A stretch of DNA of 55,670 nucleotides, from positions 1 through 55,670 of the IMG/VR virus record IMGVR_UViG_3300027491_000004; one strand, given 5' to 3'. This document shows positions 1 to 22,213 of the stretch, piece by piece (position 1 is the stretch's first letter; the number at the start of each line of letters is the position of its first letter). Origin of the DNA: a virus. The position numbers and the translations under genes are program-made. Under the pieces are notes generated by a model that saw only the letters and a program-made list of their open reading frames with translations, had not been told where the DNA came from and did not search any database.

Positions 1-1197
1 ATCGCCAGCAGTATCAGCGCCTTTTACTAGATTCTTGACAGCATCAAACTTCGATACAACATTTGTGAATGCTTCCTTAACTGGCTTAAATGCATCTGCC
101 ACAAACGTAAAGAAATTCTTAACACCTGTCACCGCTGCAGTAATCTTATTTCCCGCGGCGCTTAACAGTGTTCCAACTTTAGCAACTGTCTTTTCGATAG
201 CTTTAAAGACAGGGTTGTCAGATATCAGGCGAATGTATGCTCTAAATCTAGAGATCATTCTTTCACCAGTCTTCATGAAGTTATCAAATGCAGTAGCTAT
301 ATTCTGCCCTAAACGCGAAAACATCTCAGGTAGTTTAGATGCAATCAGTCTAGGGAGCGCCTTAATTCTGCTCCATGCGCGCTCGAATGATTTGCCGAGA
401 TCATCTATGAATTTGCCAATTGCTTTACCGAGCTTTGACTCCTTCACCATCTTGATAATGTTTTTAAAGATAGAGCCCAGTTCCTTTGCAAGTCCAATGA
501 TGAAACCACTTGCTGCACCCAGCAATCCAGCAACCCAACCCATCAGTCCTAATTTACCATCTTCGTCTTTGTCCTTATCTTTCTTTTCTTCTGGTGGCCG
601 CTTTGTTAATTTTTCAAGCAGCGCCATGAATTCTCGCCGATTTTCTTCTTCTTGCTGACGACGAGCGTTTGCAAGTTCCGAATCCTGCACCATCATATTA
701 GCAATAAAACCAATATCATTAGCAATTGCTACGATTGGACGGTATAAGTCAATTACAATTGAAGATGTGGCAAATGATGTCCCCTTGATATCCACCAAGG
801 AGCTTAGTATCTTATCAAATATTGCGACATCAAGTTTAGATTCTTCTTTTTCTTCGGCTGCTGGCGCTGCAGCTACAGCCGCCGCGATAGGAATAGATGT
901 CGGGGCCGCCTTTGCCAAGAAATCAGAAATGTCTGTCGCTATCATTTCAGTCCATGTTGAGACATCATTCATCTCAATACGGAGCTTTTCCATCTTTTCT
1001 GTTAACTTCTTCAACCCATCACTCGATGACTTAGCTGCCTTGCTTGATGTCGTTGATCCGCGTTTCTTTGCGGCAGGTGCTTTCTTTGATGCTGCCGCTC
1101 TTGTTTCTACTACAGGTGCAGCGGTGGGCGTGATGGACGAGGCCGTAACATCGGGCGATGATACTATCGGATCTGTTGTCTTTTTTGTCTCGTCCAT
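1..1197 (-). CDS. Probable tail tape measure protein, N-terminal part (cut by window edge)
   Basis: An open minus-strand frame of 399 codons starts at the ATG at 1197 and runs off the window without a stop. The first 65 residues are Ala/Ser/Thr/Lys-rich and low in complexity. A short helix follows (LTEKMEKLRIEM), then an Ala-rich linker near residue 105, a charged Glu/Lys stretch at about 180-214, and one hydrophobic membrane-type segment at about 217-236 (GWVAGLLGAASGFIIGLA). The rest looks helical, rich in Lys, Ala and Phe. Tape measure proteins set tail length, fill the tube lumen and often carry hydrophobic segments. The position directly after gp26 and its frameshift extension matches the usual order of tail assembly chaperones followed by tape measure. 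No sequence similarity to T4 gp29 was recognised, so the call is by context and composition. The start lies 6 bases after the frameshift stop. Confidence 0.55.
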   Translation of the reverse strand, partial: MDETKKTTDPIVSSPDVTASSITPTAAPVVETRAAASKKAPAAKKRGSTTSSKAAKSSSDGLKKLTEKMEKLRIEMNDVSTWTEMIATDISDFLAKAAPTSIPIAAAVAAAPAAEEKEESKLDVAIFDKILSSLVDIKGTSFATSSIVIDLYRPIVAIANDIGFIANMMVQDSELANARRQQEEENRREFMALLEKLTKRPPEEKKDKDKDEDGKLGLMGWVAGLLGAASGFIIGLAKELGSIFKNIIKMVKESKLGKAIGKFIDDLGKSFERAWSRIKALPRLIASKLPEMFSRLGQNIATAFDNFMKTGERMISRFRAYIRLISDNPVFKAIEKTVAKVGTLLSAAGNKITAAVTGVKNFFTFVADAFKPVKEAFTNVVSKFDAVKNLVKGADTAGD

Positions 1198-1203
1198 CGT
1201 AGT

Positions 1204-1395
1204 TTACTTTTTAGAATTGAGCTTTTGAATTCTTTCGTTTTCCTGCTTAACGTGTTCCGATAGCAGGTGAACGTAGATTTCCCTCTCCCATGGCAGCATG
1301 TCCTCAAGCTCTGTTAAACTGTAGTGGTGATGCTGCATCATTGCAAAATTAGTCTGATAATAGTTCAGAAGATTGTCGTGAGAGAGGGCTAGTTG
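1204..1395 (-). CDS. -1 frame extension of gp26 (tail assembly chaperone fusion part)
   Basis: This 63-codon frame (stop 1204-1206) overlaps the end of gp26 in the -1 frame. It starts right after the slippery heptamer and reads QLALSHDNLLNYYQ..., then LTELEDMLPWEREIYV, ending KLNSKK. The composition is that of a real helical, charged protein. The only internal start (a double ATG near residue 19) has no ribosome binding site, so translation by frameshift from gp26 is the simplest reading. The fusion would be about 294 residues. By analogy with lambda G/GT and other tail chaperone pairs, the short and long products would coat or fold the tape measure protein encoded next. In T4 the functions next to gp26 are given to gene 51, but I cannot claim homology to T4 gp51. 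Confidence 0.7.
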   Translation of the reverse strand, partial: QLALSHDNLLNYYQTNFAMMQHHHYSLTELEDMLPWEREIYVHLLSEHVKQENERIQKLNSKK

Positions 1396-2090
1396 AAAAA
1401 ATTCTGCAAACCTGAGATCTCAAATTCGTTTTCCTTCTTGCACTTTTCGCACTTGAACTTGATGTCCATTTGTAGCTTAGGCATGCTGGAAATGAATTCC
1501 TGAATCTTCAGAAATTGTGCCTGATTCAGCGAATCTACGAATTCGGCAAGTTCTTCACGCTTATGCTCTGCCGCGTGATATACTCCGTCCTTATCGTAGA
1601 TCGTATCGATGCAGGCGATGATGACGTTGGTGATAGCTTCTGGCGTAAGCTTAGTATCCTGGTCAGAAAGAAAGTCAGCCTTTGGATAGTTCAGCGTGAT
1701 ACCGACTTCGTCATTTAGCTGAATCTTCTTTTCGACCTTTTCAGGAAACTGTACTTGTACCTCATCGAGATTGATCTCAATCTTATTGACGGCCTCACAG
1801 TGTTTGCACTTGATGCCCACACGAGAAACTTCACCAACAGATTTAGAACGCAGCTTGAGGAACAAGTATTCGAGGTCGAACGTACACAACTTGTCAGGAT
1901 CAATCTTATTAAAAGTACAAGAAGAAACAATGTCCTTCATTGCTGTCATGATCTGCGAGTTGCTCTTTGACTCGAGTGCGATCATCAGTATCTTTTCTTC
2001 CTTGACTAGGTAAGGACGGTACATGACAGTCTTTCCAGTCGATGGAATCTTCACTTCATATTTTGGTATATCGATTTTAGGTAGTGCCAT
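1389..2090 (-). CDS. gp26: gp26-like baseplate hub / tail assembly chaperone
   Basis: This 233-residue protein matches the T4 gp26 family (T4_baseplate; T4 gp26 is about 208 residues). It begins MALPKIDIPKYEVKIPSTGK, followed by the family's YRPYLVKEEKILMIALES region. Near residue 93 is a Cys pair (KCKHCEAVNKIE) and near residue 215 a second one (KCEKCKKENEFEI), which together could bind one metal ion. That arrangement is seen here, and its function is inferred. In T4, gp26 is needed for baseplate hub assembly. Its position before a tape-measure-like gene, with a slippery sequence two codons before its stop, suggests a tail assembly chaperone role. The start is the ATG at 2090, with no Shine-Dalgarno. 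The end overlaps the -1 frame extension. Confidence 0.85.
   Translation of the reverse strand: MALPKIDIPKYEVKIPSTGKTVMYRPYLVKEEKILMIALESKSNSQIMTAMKDIVSSCTFNKIDPDKLCTFDLEYLFLKLRSKSVGEVSRVGIKCKHCEAVNKIEINLDEVQVQFPEKVEKKIQLNDEVGITLNYPKADFLSDQDTKLTPEAITNVIIACIDTIYDKDGVYHAAEHKREELAEFVDSLNQAQFLKIQEFISSMPKLQMDIKFKCEKCKKENEFEISGLQNFFN
1395..1401 (-). promoter_or_regulatory. Slippery heptamer for -1 ribosomal frameshift in gp26
   Basis: On the minus strand the bases read T TTT TTC in the gp26 reading phase, an exact X XXY YYZ heptamer, followed by AAC TAG (the gp26 stop). Slipping back by one base keeps Phe-Phe pairing and opens a 63-codon frame that continues to 1204. Frame arithmetic was checked base by base. 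No strong downstream hairpin is obvious by eye. Confidence 0.7.
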
Positions 2091-15555: not shown

Positions 15556-18500
15556 ATGGCGATCACTTATTTTAACGAATCACCCTACTGGGACGACTTT
15601 AATAAAGATAAGAACTATCTGAGAGTTCTTTTCCGTCCTGGTTATTCAGTCCAGGCTCGTGAACTTACGCAGCTGCAAACCTCGATTCAGGCTCAGATCG
15701 AGCGTTTCGGTAATCACTTCTTTAAGGATGGAACGAAGGTCATGGGAGGTTTGGCCACGATTAACAATAAGATTGCTTATGTTAAGGTGGAATCTTCAGC
15801 CCAAACTACCACATATCCTGCTCAAGGAGGTAATACGTATACTGGAAATGAAAGCCTATACCTTGAAAAGGATGGAAACGGCAATTATGTTTTGATTGGT
15901 GCTACTTTATTTGGCGCAACAAATGGCTTGCACGCTAAGATTATCGATATTGTTCCACCAGAAGGTGCAGAACCGCTGACATTGTATGTCGAGTATCTTA
16001 ATTCTGGTGGAACAAATGCCACGAATGCAGGATTAGTAAAAGCATTTGCGGCCGAAGAATATATTTTGCTTCAAAAATATGACTCTGATAGCGGTGCGGT
16101 AACAGGACGGGTTGCATTCCGCGCAAAGCCACTGGAAAACGGAAACATCAATCCTACCGGATTTGGCACTCGCGTCTCGGTTGAAGAAGGCGTTTACTAT
16201 ATCAACGGATGCTTCGTGCATACTCCAGCTGCATCTATCATTGCATCTCGTTACCGCCAGAACCCATGGTGCAGAGTAGTATACCGCGTAGAGGAAAGAA
16301 AGGTCACTCCAGTTGATGATACTACGTTAAATGATAATGCGCTAGGAACTCCAAATACCGGTGCCCCAGGAGCACACCGCTATCAGATTTTGATGAATCT
16401 GGATGTGGAAAATTGGAATCCTGCTCAGTACGATGATACTCTAGACAACTTCATTCTCGTATTAACAGTTGAGGATGGAAAAGTAAAGAAACAGAATCGC
16501 ACGGAATACACTGAGATCATGAAGACCATGGCTCAGCGTACCTACGAGGAATCTGGCAATTATGTCGTAAATCCTTTTGGTATTGACATTCGTGAATACC
16601 TAAATACCTACACGAATGGTGGTTTATACACTGCGAATCAAATTCAGAATGCTGTTGCTGGCATTAATACGGCTAATCAAGCAGCAACTTATGCATCAAA
16701 TAAGCTCGCTGCTGGCCTTGAACCTTCTGTCGCATACATCAATGGATTTCGAGTAGAATTGCAATCTACCGCATATGCGATTCTAAAGAAATCACGTAAC
16801 TTTAAGAGTCTTACTAACGCAGTAATCGATGCTGGTTATGGTAATTACCTAACTGTTTATAACGTAACTGGTCTTCCAGATATTACCAATTTTAGTTATG
16901 TCAATCTGAAGAGTGCGATCACCGGTGGTGGTACTACTATTGGCACTGCGCGTGTCCGTTCGATGGAACGCATTTCTGGCAGCAATTTTAAGTTATACCT
17001 TTTTGATGTTACTCTGAATTCTGGTAATTCGATGGCACAGGTAAGAAGTGTCACGAGTGCTACTGTAACATTTACCGCAGACACGTATATTATTGACGGA
17101 ACTGGATCGCAGGTTGCTGGTGCAGAAATTCAAGATGCATCATCTGTTTCGCTACTTTATAAGTTGCCGTATGACGTTATTAAGTCAACAGCAGATTTGA
17201 CATATACTGTTCGGCAGTCATTCGCTGGTACTATTGTTGATGGCACCCCAAATGACACAATTGTTTTAAATCCTCAGGTTAATTATCAATATTTTATTTC
17301 AGAATCTGCTTCGGACTATATTGTGGCAAAAGTCGATGGAACTATTATTACGCCATCATCTGTTGATATCGAAAGCGTCAGCGGACAAAACTATAATAAA
17401 GTAACGCTTTATTTTGCTGCTGGCACAGTTGCATCAAATACATCTGTAACAGTAATTGCATCAACGCAACGCTCGCTTTCGCCTAAGACAAAGACTTTAC
17501 AGGCACAGACATTGGCAATCGCAAGCCCAAATACTGTTGCTAGCGCTAGCACATATGACAGCTTAAATACTGTCGATGTTGTTCGTATCAAAGCAGTTCA
17601 TATGTCTGCCGATTTTAGCACAGCTGCTACAGAATCAGATCCTGATATTTCTGATCGCTACGTTCTTGATACTGGCCAGCGCGATACTTACTATGATTAC
17701 AGTACGCTGCAGCTTAAGGCTGGTGTAAATCCTCCAACCGGAAGACTGCTAGTCAAATTTGACAAGTATAACCATAGCGCAGATGGCGATTACTTTGCAG
17801 TTTCTTCATATACGAACTATGAAGATATTCCAACATTTACTTCATCGCGTGGCACAGTCGCATTAAGAGATTGCTTAGACTTCCGTCCTGCAGTGACGGC
17901 ATTTTCATCTACGAAAATGTCTGCTCCTCGTCCAAATATTACTACCGACATGGAGTATTATCTGGGACGAGTTGACAAGATATGCCTCGATCAATACGGT
18001 AACGTCAAGATTAAGGAAGGCGTGCCGTCTCTAAATCCAGTTGCTCCTCCTGATATTCAGGATGCGCTGACGATGTATATCCTGACGATTGCGCCTTATA
18101 CTTTTGGAACGCAAGATGTAAAGGCGAAGAGTCTGGATCATCGCCGCTATACGATGCGTGACATCGGTCGTATTGAAAAGCGTGTGCAGAAGCTTGAATA
18201 TTATACTGCGCTTTCACTACTAGAAAAAGAAACAGCAAGCAAGCAAATCTTGGATGCTGATGGAGTAGATCGCTATAAGAACGGATTCGTCGTCGATAGC
18301 TTTACTTCGCATGGAATTGGCGCAGTGGCGCACCCAGATTATAGCGTAGCTGTCGATAAAGTCAATGGACTGATTCGGCCTTTATTCTACGAAGAAAATG
18401 TTAACCTTCGTCTGAATACTGCTCTTTCGCAGAATTATCGCCAGACAGGACCGCTTGTTACTCTAAACTATTATTCTGCTCCGGTTATCACTCAGCCATT

Positions 18501-20319
18501 TGCTTCATACGAGCAGGACGTAAATCCATTTGCAGTAAATACTTGGACCGGCAAAATTAAGTTGTATCCTGGTACAGACGAATGGAATGAAAACCATATC
18601 GCGCCAGATGTCAAGATCGATGCTGCCAATGGCGCATATGATTCACTTAAATTCTTCAGCACACCAGAACTTGCAACTGGCACGCTATGGAATTATTGGG
18701 AAACCAATTGGTACGGCACCGATCGCAATAACGGAACAGACACTGAAAATATGTCTCCCGGACCAGTCGGCCCTGGAGGAATCGATCCGACATACAGAAA
18801 TACAACGGCGCAACTGACTTCTGGTACCAGCGTGGGTCTTGCTCCAGGAACAACCGAATCGTACAATGCGGATCGAGCAGTCGAGATCAACGTTGTTCCA
18901 TACATTCGTTCGCGCAAGATTTACTTCAAGGCTACGAACCTGCGCCCAAATACTAAGTTTTATGCATTCTTTGATGGAGCAAATGTTGGTAAGTATGTTC
19001 GTCAGGAGCACGTATTTCCAGCATATTTGCTAGCATATACTGGTACAAGTGATGCGATTGACCCATCGTATATCAATCGTAACGATCCAACATTCTTCCA
19101 GGATTACATTAATTATACTCAGCACCCTATGGGATATACTGAGTTATTCTCGAATGAATACGGAGAAATCGCTGGTTCATTTGTTATTCCAAACAACAGC
19201 CAGATGAAGTTCCGTGCTGGTCGTCGAGTGTTTACTCTGGTAGATATTGGAAATGCTGATAAGCGCTTAGCATCATCTTATGCCGATGTTGCATATGATG
19301 CCCGCGGCCAATTCACGCCAACACTTCGACCAGTTGAGCCTGCATATGAAGATCCACCAGTTGATATTCGTCAGGATGAACAGCCAATCGTAGCGCCGCC
19401 TCCAGCACCGCCACAGCCTGTAGGAAAACTCGTAGAGATGGATACTGATGCAGAATCGGTAACACCAATTGTTCCACCACCAACACCGGTGGAAATCATC
19501 GATGTTATTCCGACAACGTTAGTAACTCCGCCAACTGTGCCAGCGAACGAAGTAATACTTTGCCCTCCATCAAAGTATAATATTGTAGTTCAAACCAATA
19601 CGGAAACTACAATTACTCCGCCAGTTACACCACCATCCACACCAGAAGCTCCATGGCAGCCACCAGCGGTTACAGTCAGTGTTCCGCCAGAAGAAGCAAG
19701 GAAGGGTTGGTATCCAATTGAGGCATATCCTCCATATACTAATAGATCTCCATATCTAGTATGGGATTATCCTCCACAGCCTCGCCCAGTCGAAGAATTG
19801 CACGAAGAGGCAGGAAAACAAGGATGGTATCCATCAGAAGCTTATGGTCAAGCACCTGGTGGTCTAGTATATGGATATCCACCTTCGCCAAATCAATTCT
19901 TTACTGGCATCGATACAACGAACAATACTCCAACGAACGTCGATAATCCAAATCTAACTACTACAACAGACGTCACAGAAGAATGCGATACCGCTATTGA
20001 AATTGTCGGTGATGCAATTTCTGATCCGAATGCAGAAAATCCAATCATCGGATGTATTTCACCGGAAGAATTCATAATTCCAGAGATTAATCCTGAACAG
20101 ATTAATTACGAATGCTGGCCAGGACCAACTATTGATGAAACTACTACAGATATTTTCTACGAAGAAACTGATGTTGAACAAGTAACTACAGAAACACCTG
20201 AGGCCGACTACTTCATGGAGTATGACGGAGAAACTATCTACAGCGATAATGACGCACAGGTTGAATTTACAGACTTCCAGGCCGAATATGATGAGGCAGT
20301 AGATATCGGTAATGAATAG
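15556..20319 (+). CDS. DUF4815-type large baseplate/tail protein (gp10-like position)
   Basis: This 1587-residue protein starts with the DUF4815 signature FNESPYWDDFNKDKNYLRVL, then RPGYSVQARELTQLQTSIQ and IERFGNHFFKDGTKVMGG. The family is common in T4-like phages of marine hosts and stands where T4 has gp9/gp10, so a wedge outer or fibre-attachment role is likely. The central 1000 residues are a beta-rich mosaic. At about 1260-1480 lies a Pro-rich region (PPVDIRQDEQPIVAPPPAPP). It contains a tandem pair, GWYPIEAYPPYTN and GWYPSEAYGQAPGG, each preceded by an EEA element and followed by YPP. The last 90 residues are very acidic (YFMEYDGETIYSDNDAQVEF). The start has CTTTCTAAC upstream and no Shine-Dalgarno. 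Confidence 0.75.
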   Translation: MAITYFNESPYWDDFNKDKNYLRVLFRPGYSVQARELTQLQTSIQAQIERFGNHFFKDGTKVMGGLATINNKIAYVKVESSAQTTTYPAQGGNTYTGNESLYLEKDGNGNYVLIGATLFGATNGLHAKIIDIVPPEGAEPLTLYVEYLNSGGTNATNAGLVKAFAAEEYILLQKYDSDSGAVTGRVAFRAKPLENGNINPTGFGTRVSVEEGVYYINGCFVHTPAASIIASRYRQNPWCRVVYRVEERKVTPVDDTTLNDNALGTPNTGAPGAHRYQILMNLDVENWNPAQYDDTLDNFILVLTVEDGKVKKQNRTEYTEIMKTMAQRTYEESGNYVVNPFGIDIREYLNTYTNGGLYTANQIQNAVAGINTANQAATYASNKLAAGLEPSVAYINGFRVELQSTAYAILKKSRNFKSLTNAVIDAGYGNYLTVYNVTGLPDITNFSYVNLKSAITGGGTTIGTARVRSMERISGSNFKLYLFDVTLNSGNSMAQVRSVTSATVTFTADTYIIDGTGSQVAGAEIQDASSVSLLYKLPYDVIKSTADLTYTVRQSFAGTIVDGTPNDTIVLNPQVNYQYFISESASDYIVAKVDGTIITPSSVDIESVSGQNYNKVTLYFAAGTVASNTSVTVIASTQRSLSPKTKTLQAQTLAIASPNTVASASTYDSLNTVDVVRIKAVHMSADFSTAATESDPDISDRYVLDTGQRDTYYDYSTLQLKAGVNPPTGRLLVKFDKYNHSADGDYFAVSSYTNYEDIPTFTSSRGTVALRDCLDFRPAVTAFSSTKMSAPRPNITTDMEYYLGRVDKICLDQYGNVKIKEGVPSLNPVAPPDIQDALTMYILTIAPYTFGTQDVKAKSLDHRRYTMRDIGRIEKRVQKLEYYTALSLLEKETASKQILDADGVDRYKNGFVVDSFTSHGIGAVAHPDYSVAVDKVNGLIRPLFYEENVNLRLNTALSQNYRQTGPLVTLNYYSAPVITQPFASYEQDVNPFAVNTWTGKIKLYPGTDEWNENHIAPDVKIDAANGAYDSLKFFSTPELATGTLWNYWETNWYGTDRNNGTDTENMSPGPVGPGGIDPTYRNTTAQLTSGTSVGLAPGTTESYNADRAVEINVVPYIRSRKIYFKATNLRPNTKFYAFFDGANVGKYVRQEHVFPAYLLAYTGTSDAIDPSYINRNDPTFFQDYINYTQHPMGYTELFSNEYGEIAGSFVIPNNSQMKFRAGRRVFTLVDIGNADKRLASSYADVAYDARGQFTPTLRPVEPAYEDPPVDIRQDEQPIVAPPPAPPQPVGKLVEMDTDAESVTPIVPPPTPVEIIDVIPTTLVTPPTVPANEVILCPPSKYNIVVQTNTETTITPPVTPPSTPEAPWQPPAVTVSVPPEEARKGWYPIEAYPPYTNRSPYLVWDYPPQPRPVEELHEEAGKQGWYPSEAYGQAPGGLVYGYPPSPNQFFTGIDTTNNTPTNVDNPNLTTTTDVTEECDTAIEIVGDAISDPNAENPIIGCISPEEFIIPEINPEQINYECWPGPTIDETTTDIFYEETDVEQVTTETPEADYFMEYDGETIYSDNDAQVEFTDFQAEYDEAVDIGNE

Positions 20320-20341
20320 TTAAACCTGAAAGAATTTACAC

Positions 20342-22213
20342 ATGGCTATACTACAACCTCTCGCTCAAACGTTCACCATCGATAGTCCCAGTGGCATTTT
20401 TGCTACTGGGCTTGACCTTTTCTTTTCAAGGGTCGATTATCGGTTTCCAGTAAATGTCGAGCTTCGCACAGTGAAAGATGGAATGCCGACTGATAAGGTA
20501 ATCCCATTTTCGTTTGCGAGCCTGCGTGCAATTTCTCAGGATTTGACGATCCCATTTATTGGTATTTCTTCTGATGCTACTGTTCCTACGCGCTTTAACT
20601 TTGAAGCGCCAGTATTTCTTGCTGGAGGAACAGAATACTGCTTTGTAATACAATCTAATTCTGATCGATATCGAGTTTGGGCATCAGAAAAATTTGGATA
20701 TGATATTACTGGTATTGGTTCAGTAGGAGCTGGTAGAAAAGTCATCGATAATCCATACGGCGGAGTAATGTTTCGTGCCACAAATGCTTCATCCTGGACA
20801 GCGGATCAGATGCGCGATATTAAGTTTACTTTGCATCGCGCAGTATTTGATACCGCGAATGCTGCTACTATTATTCTAAACGAAGACGATAATATTCAGA
20901 AGCGCCTAGATGCTGATCCAGTAGAAACATACAAGAATTCAAATATTGTTAGAATTCACCATATCAATCACGGATTTTTTCCAATGGTTGGTAGTACAGC
21001 AAAATCTGCTGTTAAATTAACTCTACTCACTGGTAATCCTACTCTTATCAATGGAATTCCGATTACCGAATTAAATGCTACACATAACGTAATCGATGTT
21101 GAGCCGGATTCATATACAATCAGAGTAACCACACTCGCAACTGCTTCTGGTTTAGGCGGCGGTGACGCTGCAGTTTCTACAGATTACGTTCCATTCGATG
21201 TTTTACGTCCATCTATCGATATGATGGGCATGCCGAATACTTCATCTGTCTGGAAGATGAAGAAGACATCAGGCCAATCATTGGGCGGAACCGAAATACC
21301 AAATCAGTTGGACACTGAATATACTCGAGTTGACATCAACAAGAACATCAGTGTAGATGCTCCTGCAGTTGTATTGCCATCAGTAGGCCGTACATTTATG
21401 AATGTGGCTAATTCAAAGTCATTATTCCTAAAAGGCTTGCTGACATCTAAAGCAAATAATCTCTCGCCAGTTATCGACCTCGAGCGTAGTTCTGCTGTTG
21501 CTGTTAATAACCGTATCAATAATCCTGCTGCTGCAATTACACAGTATACCAATGCTAGCACAACTACAGCAAATGGAGCAACGACGATTGTAATGGCCAG
21601 CGCTAGCGGAATCGTAGTTGGTTACAAGGTCCGCGGCCCGTATATTCCAAACGACGTTTTAGTGACTAATGTAAACTCAAACACTATTACTATTTCTTCT
21701 GCCACAACTGGTATAATTCCAGTAAGTACGCCAATATTCTTCCTGCCAAATAACAGCGATGCAAACTATGTGGTAAATTATGCAGATGAAACCGCTCCAC
21801 TTGGCGGAGCAGCGCTATCGAAGTATATCACTCGTAAGGTTGAGCTAAATGACCCAGCATCTGCAATCAAGGTTTGGGTTTCTGTCAATCGTCCTACCGG
21901 ATCTAATATCAGCATATATTACAAGATTCAGCGCACGGACGATACCGATGGTAACTTTGATACCGACTACGGATGGAATCTAGCAACCAATGATTCTGCA
22001 GACGGAATTCCTTACTCGGATAATCCTGACAAATACTCCGAGGTGTCATATACCATCGATATTACCGACTTTAAGGCAGCGAATTTTGCTACTAGTGGCG
22101 CAGTAGATGGTGATGTTCAATTTACCGCATTTGCTATCAAGATTGTATTTACTTCCAATAATTCTTCTCGAGTACCTTCATGCAAGGAATTCAGAGCGGT
22201 CGCGGTAAGTTAA
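20342..22213 (+). CDS. Structural protein accompanying the DUF4815 protein
   Basis: This 623-residue protein lies 22 bases after the DUF4815 protein. The N-terminal part (LAQTFTIDSPSGIFATGLDL, FFSRVDYRFPVNVELRTVKD, FLAGGTEYCFVIQSNSDRYR, VWASEKFGYD) looks like the element seen at the end of DUF4815 proteins and their partners. The middle is beta-rich, with TANGATTIVMASASGIVVGY at about 405-425. The C-terminal part (ITRKVELNDPASAIKVWVSV, NRPTGSNISIYYKIQRTD, AFAIKIVFTSNNSSRVPSCK) resembles an outer binding domain. It may connect fibres to the wedge, which is inference from position. The stop codon overlaps a late-promoter-like box. GAAAG lies about 9 bases before the ATG, a rare Shine-Dalgarno-like case. 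Confidence 0.68.
   Translation: MAILQPLAQTFTIDSPSGIFATGLDLFFSRVDYRFPVNVELRTVKDGMPTDKVIPFSFASLRAISQDLTIPFIGISSDATVPTRFNFEAPVFLAGGTEYCFVIQSNSDRYRVWASEKFGYDITGIGSVGAGRKVIDNPYGGVMFRATNASSWTADQMRDIKFTLHRAVFDTANAATIILNEDDNIQKRLDADPVETYKNSNIVRIHHINHGFFPMVGSTAKSAVKLTLLTGNPTLINGIPITELNATHNVIDVEPDSYTIRVTTLATASGLGGGDAAVSTDYVPFDVLRPSIDMMGMPNTSSVWKMKKTSGQSLGGTEIPNQLDTEYTRVDINKNISVDAPAVVLPSVGRTFMNVANSKSLFLKGLLTSKANNLSPVIDLERSSAVAVNNRINNPAAAITQYTNASTTTANGATTIVMASASGIVVGYKVRGPYIPNDVLVTNVNSNTITISSATTGIIPVSTPIFFLPNNSDANYVVNYADETAPLGGAALSKYITRKVELNDPASAIKVWVSVNRPTGSNISIYYKIQRTDDTDGNFDTDYGWNLATNDSADGIPYSDNPDKYSEVSYTIDITDFKAANFATSGAVDGDVQFTAFAIKIVFTSNNSSRVPSCKEFRAVAVS

Follow-up and report, generated by a model that had tools for sequence, protein, structure and literature searches.

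gp26 and a putative frameshift-made gp26-gp51 fusion as the probable short and long tail assembly chaperones of a T4-like phage

Does translation of gene 26 in a T4-like phage end at the gene's own stop codon, or do some ribosomes pass into the -1 frame that overlaps its end and make a longer protein? The question arises in a 55,670-base IMG/VR virus record of a T4-like phage, apparently a fragment, the whole of which is called the window here. The minus-strand genes at its left end run from a gp4-like head closure protein through a gp2-like DNA end protector and a tail-tube-like protein to gp26, which is followed by a short -1 frame and then by the tape measure protein. A -1 frameshift of the kind that joins G and T in phage lambda is textbook knowledge. 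By analogy with G/GT, gp26 is very probably the short tail assembly chaperone of this phage, and gp26-gp51 the long one made by frameshifting. The features of the locus are as follows.

1389..2090, minus strand: gp26-family protein of 233 aa, putative short tail assembly chaperone (TAC-N or G-like); PF12322, phrog_150, AlphaFold model
1395..1401, minus strand: slippery heptamer T TTT TTC, in phase and separated from the gp26 stop by one sense codon (AAC); sequence and conservation
1389..1391, minus strand: TAG stop of the unshifted product; sequence
1204..1401, minus strand: -1 frame, gp51 domain, predicted C-terminal part of the long form (T-like); phrog_634, pN/pS, predicted three-helix domain
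1411..1413, minus strand: AGG 5' of the slip site with a 9-nt spacer, hypothetical weak SD-like stimulator; invariant GG, anti-SD energy
1..1197, minus strand: tape measure protein, N-terminal 399 aa, running off the record; phrog_305 (E 1.4e-8), relative L110

The identity of the upstream protein is clear from family profiles. gp26 matched PF12322 (T4_baseplate) with an E-value of 3.1e-63 and 213.8 bits (cut-off 24.5), and phrog_150 with an E-value of 1.8e-69. The 3' end of its gene reads GGT TTG CAG AAT TTT TTC AAC TAG on the minus strand. A sequence-only reading of this DNA had proposed a programmed frameshift at T TTT TTC. It placed the heptamer, the -1 frame, and a gap of six bases before the next start correctly, and it was also right that the heptamer is in phase; a single sense codon, not two, separates the heptamer from the stop. 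From the heptamer, the -1 frame runs for 65 codons and a TAA, and thus adds 63 residues after Phe-Phe. The gap between this TAA and the ATG of the tape measure gene (1197) is 6 nt. Over the 399 residues present in the window, the tape measure protein shares 87% identity with the N-terminal half of an ORF of 755 aa from the near relative L110, and this ORF matches tape measure families. In other words, gp26 and the -1 frame lie directly upstream of the tape measure gene, which is a feature of chaperones of the lambda G/GT kind. In L110, an endonuclease-like gene (phrog_452, E 6e-33) lies at 2558-2989 on the minus strand, directly after the tape measure gene.

What does the -1 frame encode? It matched phrog_634, annotated as "baseplate hub assembly catalyst" (gp51), with an E-value of 6.3e-27, and the alignment covers the last half of the profile, beginning with the first residues after the slip. 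The -1 frames of all 41 aligned relatives matched the same family. A tblastn search found the product of the -1 frame in 961 phage records, in many of which the match overlaps the gp26 and the gp51 annotations alike. Judged by these matches, the 63 extra residues are the known gp51 domain and no new extension.

Structure predictions, built from the window and the IMG/VR sequences only, gave a gp26 model with a mean pLDDT of 86.8 and a predicted three-helix domain for the -1 frame with a pLDDT of 77. A Foldseek search of the PDB with the gp26 model returned no significant match. The highest probabilities listed were those of 3fgx (0.54, E 2.5) and of the HK97 chaperone 2ob9 (0.44, E 1.6, 54 columns, not significant). 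Matches of the gp26 model in BFVD were mostly T4-like hub proteins, and a 225-aa CP220 gp26 was also among these fold matches. A sequence search of solved structures with the gp26 and gp51 profiles returned only chance matches and no solved chaperone.

Evidence that the slip site is real comes from its conservation. Within the larger ORFs of the window, T6 in the slip phase occurs once among 17,952 codons, at the end of gp26. Open -1 frames of at least 65 codons are in themselves not rare (15 of 1,290 stretches), so the length of the open frame alone would not suffice, and the case against chance rests on the heptamer being conserved in relatives. This conservation had been set beforehand as a test of the proposed frameshift, and it held. 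The heptamer T TTT TTY was found in phase near the gp26 stop in 80 of 80 IMG/VR relatives of gp26 (45-100% identity), and the -1 frame is open onward in them wherever the contig allows. Among named phages checked as frameshift candidates, 17 of 19 have an in-phase T TTT TTN followed by an open -1 frame; these counts, like those from IMG/VR, come from related sequences and hence are not independent draws. The first group of these phages comprises P-RSM6, Mosig, Melnitz-3, S-PM2, P-HM2, Vibrio R10Z and AIR1, phiM9, phiM19, pf16, and Aeromonas PX29, and the second DLP6, RHph_N34, RHph_I1_18, Ps15, OLIVR5, and K566. They belong to Kyanoviridae, Straboviridae (Schizotequatrovirus and Angelvirus), Pootjesviridae, and Emdodecavirus, together with pf16 and Stenotrophomonas phages. 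The two named candidates that lack a T6 heptamer are the distant Vibrio phages SUMAE (L105) and K475 (L107). Past the end of gp26, both have an open -1 frame with a gp51-like sequence (TPWH or MPWH motif), and in the SUMAE record this frame carries no annotation.

The position of the site and its codons are also constrained. The gp26 stop lies 0-2 sense codons past the heptamer in nearly all relatives, and 8 codons past it in Mosig. In a set of 41 sites differing from each other by more than 15%, the first codon was TTT and the preceding codon ended in T in all 41. Elsewhere in the same genes, TTT and TTC occur in a ratio of 211:121, and TTC, AAC, and other Ser codons are used often. By this comparison, the slip-site codons are frozen while their neighbours vary.

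Do ribosomes enter the -1 frame from gp26, or is the gp51-like stretch a separate small gene, translated from the ATG at 1341 or by reinitiation, with an incidental T-run upstream of it? GenBank records annotate gp51 as a separate gene. In some relatives, moreover, an ATG or GTG lies at the gp26 stop (Vibrio R10Z, phiM9, and phiM19) and overlaps it in R10Z and phiM9. In the window, however, the first possible start in the -1 frame is the ATG at codon 21, and no SD precedes it (energy +0.4). A gene beginning there would leave codons 4-20 untranslated, yet these codons behave as coding sequence. In 31 sequences, pN/pS over codons 4-20 was 0.23 in the -1 frame versus 1.5 and 1.9 in the other two frames, and the stops in this stretch numbered 0 versus 50 and 62. 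After the first ATG of the -1 frame, pN/pS was 0.16. Codons 4-20 precede any ATG, GTG, or TTG in most of these sequences. These codon statistics show that purifying selection acts on the -1 frame even ahead of the usual first start codon, which supports read-through from gp26. The annotated gp51 starts also wander, for example from 3 nt (S-PM2) to 90 nt (P-HM2) past the gp26 stop, as is expected of a gene that has no real start. A separate gene is likewise at odds with the frozen T TTT of all 41 sites, and with T4 gp51, in which the same domain is fused in frame to a gp26-like domain. Taken together, these observations make a separate gene improbable as the general explanation. The sequence-only reading had itself raised a separately translated gene with its own start and ribosome site; for the window such a gene was rejected, since no start or SD precedes codon 21 and selection extends upstream of it. 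In some Vibrio and Sinorhizobium phages, reinitiation may add free gp51 alongside the frameshift product.

The fusion could also be made without ribosomal frameshifting if RNA polymerase slipped on the T-run and produced a fusion mRNA, and the site is indeed a homopolymer of six T in the window and of seven in many relatives. Runs of this length are, however, short for slippage by bacterial RNA polymerase. Furthermore, codon boundaries are fixed and the X XXY YYZ phase is strictly preserved, and the last position of the heptamer tolerates C (21 of the 41 sites) or G (1 of 41), as re-pairing of tRNAs predicts. Transcriptional slippage is thus quite improbable, and more so than the separate gene. 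Homopolymers are also typically prone to sequencing error, and a frameshift error in the sequencing or assembly of a one-frame gene would produce the same arrangement. However, 80 IMG/VR contigs share the arrangement, and so do finished genomes of phage isolates; an error is refuted by these relatives, and its probability is close to nil.

How would the ribosomal frameshift produce two chaperones? Most ribosomes would stop at the TAG and release gp26, the short form. A minority would slip back by one base with tRNA-Phe paired on T TTT TTC, so that TTT TTC re-pairs as TTT TTT. These ribosomes would miss the TAG and add the 63 residues of the gp51 domain, producing gp26-gp51, the long form. In the window phage, the predicted tryptic peptide across the gp26-gp51 junction is about 51 residues long (ENEFEISGLQNFFQ...PWER). 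The roles of the two forms can be proposed by analogy with lambda G/GT: many copies of the short form would coat the tape measure protein encoded by the next gene, the rare long form would recruit subunits of the tail tube or a baseplate initiator, and neither form would remain in the virion. In E. coli, U_UUU_UUU reportedly shifts less readily than A_AAA_AAG (PMC5009743), so the efficiency of slipping may be low.

A search for elements that might stimulate slippage gave only a hint. Downstream of the heptamer, no stem-loop or pseudoknot was better than in shuffled sequence (z -0.1 to -0.65). Upstream, a GG is invariant 9 nt 5' of the heptamer in the 41 sites, and the mean anti-SD energy there was below that of synonymous shuffles (z about -3.4). 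A frameshift site of the dnaX type would have an internal SD some 10 nt 5' of its heptamer; the SD-like element of the window consists only of AGG. The signal is weakened because the Gly codon that contains the GG is also kept for protein reasons, being present in T4 gp26 despite the absence of a slip site there. An upstream SD-like stimulator of slippage is thus weakly hinted at.

How do these products relate to gp26 and gp51 of T4? In an alignment with gp26 and gp51 of T4 and Phi1, the two forms have the gp26 part in common, and the gp51 domain is what distinguishes the long form from the short one. T4 gp26 (208 aa) ends at the same point as gp26 of the window, and T4 gp51 (249 aa) consists of a gp26-like domain that continues into the same C-terminal domain as the window's -1 frame. 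The proteins are therefore homologous, with the same end of the short form and the same C-terminal domain of the long form. The difference is that T4 encodes them in two genes, whereas the window phage would make them from one frameshifted gene. Genes 26 and 51 are separate and oppositely oriented in T4, Phi1, Aes508, Thanatos-1, STP4-a, and a Klebsiella phage, and the slip heptamer is absent from the ends of gene 26 in all six; in T4 this end reads TTC TTT. Sequence comparison thus indicates two ways of making the same two products: a single frameshifted gene in most of the lineages sampled, and a pair of genes in Tevenvirinae-type phages. The wide spread of the frameshift state suggests that it is ancestral in T4-like phages. 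It is conceivable, if somewhat doubtful, that the ancestral state combined a slip at an invariant T TTT TTN site with help from an upstream SD-like element in place of a downstream structure, and that Tevenvirinae-type phages later lost the site and replaced it with the separate genes 26 and 51. In Campylobacter phage CJLB-14 (MW074126; L097 1156-1896), a single in-frame protein of 246 aa comprises a gp26-like part and a gp51-like end; a search of the genome found no second copy, and no T6 slip site in the 246-aa ORF.

A 2016 review described the G-T frameshift as conserved in long-tailed phages "except T4" (PMC5009743). Judging from the passages of PMC10885494 and PMC12846349 that cite their work, the tail chaperones of T4-like phages were identified by Vladimirov, Gautam and Davidson (2022; Virology 566:9-15), who are cited for poly-T slip signals in these phages (PMC12846349). 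In place of frameshifting, some T4-like phages have a short gene together with a longer, fused one (PMC10885494). As far as these citing passages go, the reading of gp26 as a chaperone of the G/GT type, which had been offered for this DNA from sequence alone, is not new, and the present analysis adds another member, broad conservation data, and the weak SD-like hint. The claim of a programmed -1 frameshift with a two-product chaperone has strong comparative support, because the conserved heptamer, the conserved -1 frame, the selection ahead of the usual first start, the position before the tape measure gene, and the two-gene counterpart in T4 all point to it. That the locus shows a T4-type gp26 acting as a G/GT-type pair was too strong a wording for comparative evidence.

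The exception made for T4 holds for T4 itself, and most of the T4-like relatives checked carry the slip site. The frameshift would also explain why gp51 appears as a headless small gene in many records of cyanophages and other T4-like phages: the annotated gp51 would be the C-terminal tail of gp26, and the gene model should be corrected accordingly. No joined gp26-gp51 CDS was present in any public-record region examined. Cyanophage records list a separate gp51 gene with inconsistent starts (for example L085 1816-1989, L086 1903-1995, and L083 1864-1998), and some, such as those of S-WAM1, ACG-2014e, and S-SSM4, list no gp51 gene under the match. The occurrence of frameshift and two-gene solutions within one phage group offers a natural comparison of how the ratio of short to long form is set. 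Elsewhere in the window, consecutive ORFs of 1587 and 623 aa (15556-22213, plus strand) match phrog_358, a large family of unknown function, at positions 579-1381 and 1766-2054 of its 2056-position profile, and are possibly a split giant protein.

As in lambda G/GT, the tape measure gene comes immediately after the pair, the short gene has its -1 slip site at the 3' end, and the predicted C-terminal extension is in the -1 frame without a usable start of its own. The lambda slip site is a G-rich heptamer, whereas that of the window phage is T TTT TTC. Window gp26 is also larger than lambda G, contains conserved Cys pairs, and has no lambda-type Pfam match. The tail assembly chaperone locus described for Vandenendeviridae and Andersonviridae is similar in having a poly-T motif (GTTTTT) at the end of TAC-N and in that its -1 frame is annotated as a hypothetical gene in its own right (PMC12846349); these are other phage families with another motif. 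The closest counterparts are S-PM2, P-HM2, and other cyanophages, which have the same proteins, gene order, T TTT TTC site, and open -1 frame. Their public records differ in showing two genes and no frameshift, and the window phage, whose gp26 is 35-40% identical to those of S-PM2 and P-HM2, represents a distinct lineage.
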